Shown here: piece after piece, positions 25,209 to 37,198 of the stretch
Layout of the letters: each line of letters opens with the position of its first letter
Position numbering within the stretch: the stretch's first letter is position 1
NCBI GenBank assembly: GCA_029863605.1
Contig: JAOTVB010000001.1
Coordinates: 534,187 to 598,186 of the forward strand
From: Myxococcales bacterium
GTDB lineage: Bacteria; Myxococcota_A; Polyangia; Polyangiales; Houyiibacteriaceae
Direction: 5' to 3'
DNA length: 64,000 nucleotides
The notes under the pieces: generated by a model
Databases searched by the model: none
What the model was told of the DNA's origin: nothing
Seen by the model: the letters and a program-made list of their open reading frames with translations, nothing else
Program-made: the position numbers and the translations under genes

Positions 25209-26710
25209 GGCATATCGTCCGGGTCCAAGGCGAAGCCGGGCGTCGCGCTGATTCGGCCGTCATCGCGTACTCGCCCTGGCAAATCGAGCCCTTGACTGAT
25301 TTCCTCGAGCGCTTGAAACAGAACCGCGCGCTCCCGGGAGATCTGTTCGACGATCGTTGCGCCCCATTTTCGCTTCGCCCGGATCTTGATCGACGTCCAG
25401 GTCCGGTCGACCAACTCGAGATAGATCAGAGCGAGCGCTCCCCCGAAGGCGCCAATGAAAAACGTCGTGACGCCGGCGGCCCATGGGGCACGCGGGATTC
25501 CTGAAAAGGATTCGTGAAGCTGGATCTGACCGAGCCCAACGAGCAAGGCGGCGGTCAACCACGTCAATGGGAAGACAATCATCCCAACCAGCAGCTTGAC
25601 GGTCGCTGTGTCCTTGTATTGCCTCGCGGCGAGCTTCGAGGCCAGGTTGGTCACGAAGTAAGGGCCCACGTTGATCAGCAAACCCAGGAACAGAACGGGC
25701 GGAAACACCAAGAATACGACTGCCGCTTGAAGCCCGAGGAGGAACGGAATCCATTTCGACTCGATCGGCGGCGGCTTGTCGAGGTCATCGTCCTCTAGTT
25801 TGACCTCGCGGAGCGCCGAATCGTAGGCGGCAACCTGGTCCAACAGGGCCTCGACAGCTTGTGGATCGGTCTTCACGAGGTCGTAGTACGCCCTCCACAC
25901 GCGCGCCATCCCGAGGGTGCGTTCGGCCATGTCGGGTGCTTTCAGATTCGCCCCAGCCCTCTTGGCGCGCTCTGCCCTCATGAGGGAGCGCACGCGGCCC
26001 ATCAGTCGGTTGAGCTCCCAGCTTTCGGTGGCATGCGTCACTTCTTGCAGAATCGGCTCGAGCTCTGCCGTGAGCGCGCTGCTTCGAGCCCGAAGCACCT
26101 CGTCGTCGTCATCGGGAATCGGCTCGTCGAGCTCGGGCGTCAACTCGATCGGTGCATGGAACTCGACGAGAGCGTCCGAACGAAACGATGTCTTGTCGTC
26201 ATAATGTAGGCCTACCGGGATGATGACCGGTGGCACTCCGTTCGGATCGCTGAGTTGCTTCGCGCGGTAGTAGAGTCGTGCGGCACCGGTCTTGAGATCC
26301 TGCAAGAACGGGGCATCGTGGCTCACGCCCTCGGGGAAGAGTGCGGCGAAGCGTCCGTCGCAGACCGCTTGGGCCAACGCATCGAGGCTCTTCCGATTGG
26401 CGTTGCGCCGCGCTTCATCGTCCGCGTCCTCGAGGTCGACAGCCCGGTAGATCGGAACCGTGCCGAGGGCGCGCATCAGCTGGCCTACGAACGGCCATTT
26501 GAACAGTCCATGACGTGCGCCAAACACCACTCGCCTCGGAAACGTGCTGACGATGAGCGCCGGATCGACGAGCCCGTTGGGGTGCCATGCGATCAGAATC
26601 CCCCCACCGCTTTGCGGCACGTGTTCAATGCCGGCCACCCCAACGCGTCGAAAGAACATTCCCACCAAGAATCGAACGAGACGCACCGCGCTGCTGGTGG
26701 TGATGGCCAT
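25205..26710 (-). CDS. PlsC-family glycerolipid acyltransferase with C-terminal membrane domain
   Basis: 501 residues from ATG 26710; longer in-frame extension lacks a sensible N terminus. The acyltransferase domain covers roughly residues 10-250, with the catalytic block IAWHPNGLVDP (an H-x5-D spacing known from this PlsC-like subgroup), GARHGLFKWPFVGQLMRALGTVPIYR and FPEGVSHD. The second half is helical and carries three to four hydrophobic helices (FLLGLQAAVVFLVFPPVLFLGLLINVG and following). The family acylates lysophosphatidate or related lipids at the inner membrane. No partner gene is adjacent; divergent from the octahaem cytochrome gene. Confidence 0.82.
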   Translation of the reverse strand: MAITTSSAVRLVRFLVGMFFRRVGVAGIEHVPQSGGGILIAWHPNGLVDPALIVSTFPRRVVFGARHGLFKWPFVGQLMRALGTVPIYRAVDLEDADDEARRNANRKSLDALAQAVCDGRFAALFPEGVSHDAPFLQDLKTGAARLYYRAKQLSDPNGVPPVIIPVGLHYDDKTSFRSDALVEFHAPIELTPELDEPIPDDDDEVLRARSSALTAELEPILQEVTHATESWELNRLMGRVRSLMRAERAKRAGANLKAPDMAERTLGMARVWRAYYDLVKTDPQAVEALLDQVAAYDSALREVKLEDDDLDKPPPIESKWIPFLLGLQAAVVFLVFPPVLFLGLLINVGPYFVTNLASKLAARQYKDTATVKLLVGMIVFPLTWLTAALLVGLGQIQLHESFSGIPRAPWAAGVTTFFIGAFGGALALIYLELVDRTWTSIKIRAKRKWGATIVEQISRERAVLFQALEEISQGLDLPGRVRDDGRISATPGFALDPDDMP

Positions 26711-26727
26711 GCCACATGATATCCCGA

Positions 26728-26752
26728 GAAAATGGGGACGGTCCCCTTTTTC
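26728..26752. repeat. REP-like 25-bp imperfect palindrome
   Basis: GAAAATGGGGACGGTCCCC followed by TTTTTC is nearly identical to its own reverse complement. It sits in the 73-bp divergent gap between the acyltransferase and octahaem cytochrome genes. The GGGGAC/GTCCCC core resembles REP-type palindromes seen in many proteobacteria. It also looks like a plus-strand terminator (stem then T5), but no plus-strand gene ends upstream of it. Confidence 0.5.
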
Positions 26753-26783
26753 GATCTTCCGATACGCGCTAGACACGCTCGTG

Positions 26784-29051
26784 ATGAGAGGCGAGCGAAT
26801 CGTGTTCCTGGGTGCCGCGCTCGCCACTCTTTCGTTGGGCTGCAAGCAGAAGGAGGAGACGGTCGTCGTGTCCCCTGCACCCGCGGTGGAGGCAGCTCCG
26901 GAGTATGCGGGTACCGACACCTGCACGTCCTGTCACGAGAAGGCGCACGAGGACTGGATGGGGTCGCATCACGACCTCGCGATGCAAGTCGCGACGTCCG
27001 ATACCGTGCTCGGCGATTTCGGCGGAACGACGGCGCGCTACTATGGCGAGACCGCAATTTTCGTTCGCGAAGGCGACGCGTTTTTCGTGGAGGTGGTCGA
27101 CGCCGATGGCAAGCCAACTCGCTTTCCGGTGGAGTACGCGTTTGGCATTGCGCCGCTTCAGCAATATCTGGTCGAGACGGAGCCCGGCCGTCTGCAGGCC
27201 TTCCCTTTTGCTTGGGACACTCGCCCAAAGGAGCGCGGCGGGCAGCGTTGGTTCCACCTGCAGCCCGAGGAATACATCGAACCGGGAGATCCGCTTCATT
27301 GGACGGGCCCGAGCTACAACTGGAACCATGCGTGCGCCGATTGTCATTCGACCGCGCTAAAGAAGAACTACGATCGCGCCTCCAAGCGCTATGCGACCGA
27401 GTACCTCGAAGTAAACGTCGGCTGCGAGGCGTGCCACGGGCCTGGGTCGAAGCACATCGAGCTCGCCAAGGCGAAACGACGTGCCAAAACCACCGGGTTT
27501 GATCGTCGCCTCCCGGCGTTCGGGGAGCGCAAATGGGGCTTTGTCGAGGACGCTGACATCGCCGTTCTCGCTACGGGGTCGCCCAGCGACGAGCTCGAAA
27601 CCTGTGCCCCCTGTCACTCGCGTCGCGCCGATCTCGGTGGCGAACATGGCGGCTACCACAATCGCTATCGCCTCGCGGTGCTCGATGAGCATCTCTACTT
27701 CGATGACGGGCAGATCAAAGACGAGGTGTACGTCTACGGATCGTTCTTGCAGAGCAAAATGTACGCGGCGGGCGTCGTTTGTAGCGACTGCCACGAGCCG
27801 CACAGCGCGACCCTCCGCGCCGAGGGGAATGCCCTGTGTACCCGATGCCACAAGGCCGAAGTATTCGATAGCCCTCAGCACTCCTTTCACGAACCTGGAA
27901 CGCCTGGAAGCCTCTGCACCGATTGCCACATGCCCAAGCGCACGTACATGGTGATCGACGATCGCGGAGACCACCGGTTCGAGCTTCCTCGCCCCGGGCT
28001 TTCGGCCAGCGTCGGGGCACCGGATTCGTGTACGGGTTGTCACTCGAAGAAGACCACGGCGTGGGCGGAGCGAGAGATCGCCAAACACTTCGAATCGCGA
28101 TCGGACCATGAGTTTGCGGAGGTGCTGTTCGCGGCACGGCATCAACAACCCGGTGCCGAGGCAGGTTTGGTGGAGCTCGTGGCCGCTGGTTCCGCTCCGG
28201 CGATCGTGCGTGCCACGGCGCTCCTCGAGCTTCGAAACCTGAGCTCGCGTGCTCTGCCGGCGCTCCTGATGCGGGCCTCGAGTGACCCGAGTCCGGTCGT
28301 CCGTCGCTCGGTAGCGACTGCAGCGAGAGACTTGCCCCCCGACCTTCGCCCCGAGGTCGTGGTGACCCTCCTCGATGATCCCGTGCGCACCGTCCGGATC
28401 GAGGCGGTAGCCGCCTTGCTTGGCAGCAACACTCGGGATTGGAAGCCATCCGATCGCAAGGCGTTCGACCAAGCCAAGGCCGAGTATGAGGATGCCCGTG
28501 CGTTCAACGCCGACCGCGGTGAAGGGCTAGTCGACCTCGCATACCTCGCGACCGTCGAGCGCAAACCGAAGCAGGCCGAAGTGATGCTTCGAGAGGCCAT
28601 CGACACCGATCCGACGTTCACCGCGGCGTACGTCAACCTCGCCGATCTCTACCGAAGCCTCGGTCGCGACGACGATGCCGAGACCGTGCTCCGTGAGGCG
28701 AAAAGAAGTGCTGCCGACCAACCCTCGGTCGAGTACGCATTGGGTCTCACCCTCATTCGCCTCGGCCGACATGCGGAAGCGACGAAGCACCTGGCCCGCG
28801 CTCATGAGCTCCGTCCGGAAAGCATTCGGTTCGGCTACGTCTACGCGGTGGCTCAGTTCGATCAAGGCAGGCAAGACGCCGCGCTCCGAACACTCGGCGA
28901 GATACACATGCGCTACCCGGCCAATCTGGAGATCCTAGTCCTGCTCCGAAACTACAATCGCCAGCTCGGCCGCGAGCGGGCCGCAGCGCATTACTCTTCC
29001 AAGCTTCAGGAGTTGGGAGTGACACCAGGACGACCAGACTTCGTACCTTGA
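26784..29051 (+). CDS. Octahaem c-type cytochrome lipoprotein with HEAT-like and TPR repeats
   Basis: 755 residues from ATG 26784 (GTG 26781 also possible). Signal MRGERIVFLGAALATLSLGC, lipidated Cys20. Eight CxxCH sites lie at about residues 47, 184, 214, 274, 333, 352, 378 and 416. The spacing and the CSDCHEPHSATL and CTDCHMP segments resemble cytochrome c554/NrfB-like multihaem proteins. Residues about 430-560 look HEAT-like (GSAPAIVRATALLELRNL, PSPVVRRSVATAARDLP). Residues about 600-750 are TPRs (AYVNLADLYRSLGRDDDAE). Likely a surface or periplasmic electron carrier. Its redox partner is not encoded nearby. Architecture parallels 8471-10636. Confidence 0.88.
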   Translation: MRGERIVFLGAALATLSLGCKQKEETVVVSPAPAVEAAPEYAGTDTCTSCHEKAHEDWMGSHHDLAMQVATSDTVLGDFGGTTARYYGETAIFVREGDAFFVEVVDADGKPTRFPVEYAFGIAPLQQYLVETEPGRLQAFPFAWDTRPKERGGQRWFHLQPEEYIEPGDPLHWTGPSYNWNHACADCHSTALKKNYDRASKRYATEYLEVNVGCEACHGPGSKHIELAKAKRRAKTTGFDRRLPAFGERKWGFVEDADIAVLATGSPSDELETCAPCHSRRADLGGEHGGYHNRYRLAVLDEHLYFDDGQIKDEVYVYGSFLQSKMYAAGVVCSDCHEPHSATLRAEGNALCTRCHKAEVFDSPQHSFHEPGTPGSLCTDCHMPKRTYMVIDDRGDHRFELPRPGLSASVGAPDSCTGCHSKKTTAWAEREIAKHFESRSDHEFAEVLFAARHQQPGAEAGLVELVAAGSAPAIVRATALLELRNLSSRALPALLMRASSDPSPVVRRSVATAARDLPPDLRPEVVVTLLDDPVRTVRIEAVAALLGSNTRDWKPSDRKAFDQAKAEYEDARAFNADRGEGLVDLAYLATVERKPKQAEVMLREAIDTDPTFTAAYVNLADLYRSLGRDDDAETVLREAKRSAADQPSVEYALGLTLIRLGRHAEATKHLARAHELRPESIRFGYVYAVAQFDQGRQDAALRTLGEIHMRYPANLEILVLLRNYNRQLGRERAAAHYSSKLQELGVTPGRPDFVP

Positions 29052-32029: not shown

Positions 32030-32060
32030 AAAAAAGAAGAGCCGACTCTCTCGAGCCGGC
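32030..32060 (-). terminator. Intrinsic terminator ahead of the MscS-type gene
   Basis: Minus strand: GCCGGCTC, loop GAGA, GAGTCGGC, then TCTTCTTTTTT. The 8-bp stem contains one G.U pair, which would be an A.C mismatch on the plus strand, so the minus strand is the functional one. It lies 58 bases upstream of the first possible MscS start and about 240 bases after the stop of the upstream gene. Confidence 0.7.
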
Positions 32061-32240
32061 CCCCAAAGATAGTCCTGACCGTCGTGCCGTGGGATCTATG
32101 TCGAGTCGAATCCCTACCGTTCTAGTAGGTGGGAACAGATACCGTACGCTTAAGGCACCCCGATGAAGCTAGCCGGGTCCGCACACCACATACGCTGAAG
32201 TTCCCAATTCGACCTAGTCAGGGATTCTCTACTCCTTCCT
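32061..32240 (-). ncRNA. Candidate structured RNA (leader or independent sRNA) in the 326-bp gap
   Basis: This is the only gene-free stretch over 300 bp (31973-32298). Pairings in plus coordinates: 32074-32079 with 32217-32222 (6 bp), 32105-32111 with 32207-32213 (7 bp), 32130-32135 with 32201-32206 (6 bp) and a local hairpin 32113-32117/32125-32129 with a 7-base loop. The 7- and 6-bp helices stack without a gap on one strand, making a three-way junction. A further helix (32143-32148/32189-32194) needs a G.U pair on the minus strand but would be C.A on plus. It ends at the terminator. A 6S-like RNA was considered; resemblance (CCCACCT..GAAC, GCCTTAA) is weak. Confidence 0.4.
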
Positions 32241-32298
32241 CACCTGCACAACAGAGGGACCTCGAGACAAGGTAGAGCCGGGCTTACCGGGGGTCAAC

Positions 32299-37114: not shown

Positions 37115-37198
37115 GGCCGAGTGGCGGAATTGGCAGACGCGCCGGACTCAAAATCCGGTGTCCGCAAGGACGTGTCGGTTCGAGCCCGACCTCGGCTA
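37115..37198 (+). tRNA. tRNA-Leu(CAA)
   Basis: 84 nt. Acceptor GGCCGAG pairs with CTCGGCT (terminal G.U), D arm GCGGAATTGGCAGACGC, anticodon stem CCGGA/TCCGG with loop CTCAAAA giving anticodon CAA, long variable arm TGTCCGCAAGGACGT typical of class II tRNAs, and T arm GTCGG-TTCGAGC-CCGAC. The discriminator is A. The following bases are CCT, so CCA is not fully encoded and must be added. Decodes UUG. Confidence 0.95.

Follow-up and report, generated by a model that had tools for sequence, protein, structure and literature searches.

A 6S RNA gene ahead of an MscS-type channel gene

Does a structured RNA that lies directly upstream of a mechanosensitive channel gene control that channel, or is it a gene in its own right? 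We addressed this question at a locus within a 64,000-nucleotide stretch of DNA from a Myxococcota bacterium (the window). On the minus strand, the RNA sits between a gene encoding a 619-aa protein (34158-32299) and an MscS-type channel gene (31972-29444; 842 aa, with Pfam MS_channel domains). The original prediction placed a three-way junction and an intrinsic terminator at 32030-32240 and offered three options: an independent small RNA, a leader controlling the channel by attenuation, or a 6S-type RNA. 6S RNA is a widespread small RNA that restrains bacterial RNA polymerase during starvation.

Comparing the window with all Rfam families returned two matches in total, 6S RNA and a tRNA. The 6S match (RF00013) lies at 32260-32072 on the minus strand, the strand indicated by the terminator, and runs full length, covering model positions 1-187 of 187 (E 3.3e-6 over the window). 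Its score of 46.6 bits is marginal against a cut-off of 46.4, and several congeners score under the cut-off. An RF00013 search of the host genome recovered a single copy. By Rfam, homologues are present in 24 of 33 family genomes, 125 of 183 order genomes and 144 of 282 genomes sampled from the phylum, with best scores of 69.6 bits within the family and 93.6 bits within the phylum. Three of the nine Rfam-negative family genomes carry 6S by BLASTN at 87% identity and five of the remaining six are less than 90% complete, so the gaps within the family are mostly an effect of threshold or assembly. Two genomes hold more than one match. G386 has two different strong ones (C213:20606-20791 and C84:10602-10781; 76.9 and 72.3 bits), possibly paralogues, and in G172 two inverted copies with equal scores share one contig (C83), perhaps an assembly artefact.

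With this full-length match and its homologues in family and order, the third option of the original prediction proved correct. Judged from sequence, the RNA at 32260-32072 is almost certainly the single 6S RNA (ssrS-type) gene of this bacterium, equipped with its own promoter and its own terminator. As a member of a well-known family it is an ordinary find. The group itself has been little studied, and its 6S genes, this one included, score so close to the annotation threshold that they are easily missed. Our literature search found no paper on 6S in myxobacteria, and an earlier listing in general 6S surveys is possible.

Covariation of the fold

Folding energy does not distinguish this RNA. 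Its z-scores are -1.6 and -1.4, and 14 and 16 of 200 shuffles were equally stable, as would be expected if a GC-rich intergenic gap had folded by chance ahead of an unrelated terminator. What carries the fold beyond chance is the covariance-model match together with covariation. In a MAFFT alignment built without structure, 90.7% of cells are paired among the 24 family copies and 22 pairs are changed on both sides. Among 45 family and order copies, both-sided changes occur in 40 of 56 pairs, with 309 double-change cells against 119.5 expected. None of 500 shuffles reached the observed values on any of five measures, and sliding the partner columns abolished the signal. Given these compensatory changes, the covariance-model match and conservation across the phylum, we consider a chance fold to have a negligible probability, and we rejected it on covariation.

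The covariation supports the rod structure of a 6S RNA, with a closing stem, a central bubble and an apical stem bearing conserved motifs. The apical arm (32131-32205), delineated by Rfam alignment, fold and covariation, comprises GGGAAC:GUUCCC (32205-32200 with 32136-32131), CGUAUG:CGUACG and a terminal hairpin, and contains the motifs GGUGUGC and GCCUUAAGC. The three-way junction described earlier is also present on the minus strand: its helices GUCGAAU:AUUCGAC, GGGAAC:GUUCCC and CCUAC:GUAGG are joined in the minimum-energy fold, in which no unpaired base separates the closing helix from either the apical stem or the hairpin. In the closing helix (helix A), 46 cells show double changes where 20.6 would be expected, and in two inner pairs of the 3' hairpin both bases are changed, columns 207/218 in 19 sequences and columns 208/217 in 14. 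These double changes indicate that the junction is real. The interval 32030-32240 thus captured a genuine RNA but was too short, since the ~189-nt transcript is expected to start near 32260-32262; the promoter was therefore overlooked, as was the closing stem's 5' strand.

Promoter, terminator and gene neighbourhood

A 6S promoter, TTGACC-17-TACCTT (-35 element at 32292-32297, -10 element at 32269-32274, minus strand), begins one base past the stop codon that ends the upstream 619-aa gene. Of the 24 family copies, 18 retain TTGACC and its 17-nt spacer, and a nineteenth has TTGCCG instead. The other five comprise two without TTGACC (L009 and L019), two whose extracts stop short of the upstream region (L006 and L012) and one that is read antisense (L024). 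Across relatives, a TTGACC-17-TANNNT promoter occupies a fixed place. The end of the 619-aa gene is likewise fixed: in each of the 12 genus loci that have sequence at this point, its stop codon is equally far from the RNA. At the other end, a minus-strand intrinsic terminator (32064-32037), as originally claimed, has a 12-bp stem followed by a T run to ~32029. It is the sole terminator found in the region, and by eye, terminator-like hairpins stand behind most relatives' 6S genes. A conserved promoter immediately behind the 619-aa stop codon points to a stand-alone gene and, with the RNA's own terminator, supports the independent small RNA at the level of sequence.

The 619-aa neighbour matches no Pfam family at E 0.001. 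It is conserved in the family, and several more distant loci match it best in the C-terminal ~100 aa. Elsewhere in the window, a multihaem cytochrome with CXXCH motifs, cytochrome c7/c554 domains and a TPR tail lies near the channel gene (26544-29051), and the tRNA gene lies at 37115-37198 (Rfam 55 bits).

If the RNA were a cis-acting leader, its junction would sense a signal and formation of the terminator would decide mscS expression by attenuation. Its position with the terminator just upstream of mscS, on the same strand, is what such a leader would require. The neighbourhood in relatives argues otherwise. Only in the window genome and a close relative (G024) is mscS the next gene; in a further congener (G018) a PLD-domain gene intervenes and mscS lies ~1.6 kb off. 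In most congeners 6S is retained but has no mscS beside it, and the next gene is often one with a PLD domain (cardiolipin-synthase-like), encoded on the opposite strand; beyond G024 and G018, congeners have no mscS there. In other genera of the family, 6S is flanked on one side by a member of the 619-aa gene family and on the other by a cobalamin adenosyltransferase gene, with formyltransferase and deformylase genes beyond the latter, and it occurs in either orientation. The RNA moreover scores full length as 6S, and its terminator forms alongside the intact RNA in the minimum-energy fold of both, an energy-only prediction that contained no antiterminator pairing. We rejected the leader on synteny: 6S stays behind the 619-aa gene and the mscS neighbour is not conserved. 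A leader function is therefore highly improbable, and the adjacency of mscS to this stand-alone 6S gene is incidental, an accident of gene order.

In five loci of the other genera (L026 and L032, also L028, L029 and L045), the 619-aa-type and cobalamin adenosyltransferase genes that flank 6S are convergent. The direction of 6S differs among those genera, as if the gene had been flipped in place.

Two competing central helices

The wider interest of this locus lies in one point, the unusually clear comparative support that its relatives give to two competing helices at the centre of the RNA. A single 3' strand, AGGGAUUCGAC (32105-32115), is complementary to two 5' segments. In helix B, which corresponds to P2, GAAUCCCU (32220-32227) pairs with AGGGAUUC (32115-32108), and Infernal aligns this pairing to the central pairing of the Rfam consensus. 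In helix A, GUCGAAU of the distal 5' central bubble (32207-32213) pairs with AUUCGAC (32111-32105), next to the 3' central-bubble hairpin CCUAC...GUAGG (32113-32129; strands 32129-32125 with 32117-32113). Over 45 sequences, 95.6% of the helix B cells are paired. The window RNA is predicted to be equally stable in either form (-70.4 and -70.3 kcal/mol), with helix probabilities of 0.44 and 0.50. Across the predicted folds of the free RNAs, helix B exceeds a probability of 0.5 in 29 of 45 and helix A in 8 of 45.

We computed duplex energies for 5' and 3' segments of the same RNA and compared them with those for segments taken from different RNAs. For helices A and B, own strands pair better: with kinship ignored, none of 10,000 permutations matched the observed values in the full set, nor in the subsets from the order outside the family and from Myxococcota outside the order. 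Inside the family the result was weak (386 of 10,000 for A and 1383 of 10,000 for B), the sequences there being too alike. By pairing potential and covariation, then, this RNA has what characterizes the B. subtilis type, a potential collapse helix that is mutually exclusive with P2.

Release of polymerase from 6S would begin with the copying of a short product RNA (pRNA), and the 5' side of the bubble suggests where. The column of 32217 is a pyrimidine in 44 of 45 sequences, the template base opposite pRNA position +2 is A in 39 of 45, and a CCC block is kept in 43-45 of 45. Read 5' to 3' in 6S RNA, the conserved C-C-C-N-N-A-Y fits a pRNA with a purine at +1, U at +2 and GG at 5/6; GG at these positions has been described (PMC8414754). 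The conserved pyrimidine, the adjacent A and the CCC block suggest a pRNA GUCAGGGAUUCUCU starting opposite the C at 32217, with a predicted template at 32217-32230. We also considered an alternative pRNA, AUUCGACC..., whose start would face the tip of helix A, but 32217 fits the pattern of purine, U and GG better.

Masking the predicted 14-nt template in fold predictions raised helix A above a probability of 0.5 from 8 to 34 of 45 RNAs and the 3' hairpin from 18 to 37, and lowered helix B from 29 to 0, a partly circular outcome given that helix B cannot form once its 5' strand is masked. An equal-length control mask further upstream gave helix A in 19 of 45 and the hairpin in 27. The masking outcome is consistent with a switch and serves as a consistency check on it, not as proof.

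From what is known of the family, the mechanism may run as follows. Once expressed, with accumulation expected in stationary phase, the rod-shaped RNA would mimic an open promoter and sequester the RNA polymerase holoenzyme that contains the housekeeping sigma factor. A renewed supply of nucleotides would then lead the polymerase to copy a short pRNA from the 5' side of the central bubble. Starting near 32217, this pRNA would disrupt the ground-state helix P2 (GAAUCCCU:AGGGAUUC). The freed 3' strand could then pair with GUCGAAU as a collapse helix beside the CCUAC:GUAGG hairpin, generating the three-way junction that the original prediction had recognized. In this collapsed state, the polymerase would presumably be released.

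A different account holds that the RNA is 6S by descent but that its centre exists mainly in the three-way-junction form, with pRNA-driven release different or absent. The isoenergetic forms of the window RNA fit this account, as do two relatives in which the junction form is favoured (L072 and L004). Set against it are the preference of free RNAs for helix B over helix A and the compensatory changes that maintain both pairings; energies of the isolated RNA, moreover, do not predict the polymerase-bound state. We regard a predominantly junction-form 6S RNA as unlikely. We lean, with modest confidence, towards Myxococcota 6S RNAs being evolutionarily maintained two-state switches, among which the window RNA would lie near the balance point. 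If true, this would amount to broad comparative evidence that refolding through a collapse helix has been selected as a release mechanism outside Firmicutes and Aquificales. The value of the group is comparative, in that its copies differ enough for compensatory changes to show in each of the two rival central helices. How 6S releases polymerase also becomes testable through simple compensatory mutants.

Comparison with known 6S systems

The window RNA resembles the RF00013 6S/SsrS family in its length, rod shape, closing and apical arms, central bubble, apical motifs and consensus central helix. It differs from the family model in scoring just at the gathering threshold and in having a short distal 5' bubble that can pair with the 3' strand as helix A. 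In E. coli 6S, a hairpin on the 3' side of the central bubble is likewise able to form once P2 opens (PMC8876501), but that hairpin has 9 bp and refolding is described as proceeding through it rather than through a collapse helix. An analysis spanning Rfam reported no compensatory changes for the alternative helix of E. coli-type 6S (PMC7657543).

The closest likeness is to B. subtilis 6S-1. There, P2 is opened by pRNA synthesis, which frees its 3' strand to pair with the distal part of the 5' bubble; the 'central bubble collapse' helix formed in this way sits beside a small hairpin on the 3' side (PMC8876501). In position and logic, P2 has its counterpart here in helix B, the collapse helix in helix A and the 3' hairpin in the CCUAC hairpin. 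The 6S RNAs of both B. subtilis and A. aeolicus have been described as refolding via a collapse helix (PMC8876501; PMC4227106). Compared with these two, the Myxococcota RNAs stand apart in two respects: their collapse helix has broad covariation support across the phylum, and in the window species it is nearly isoenergetic with P2.
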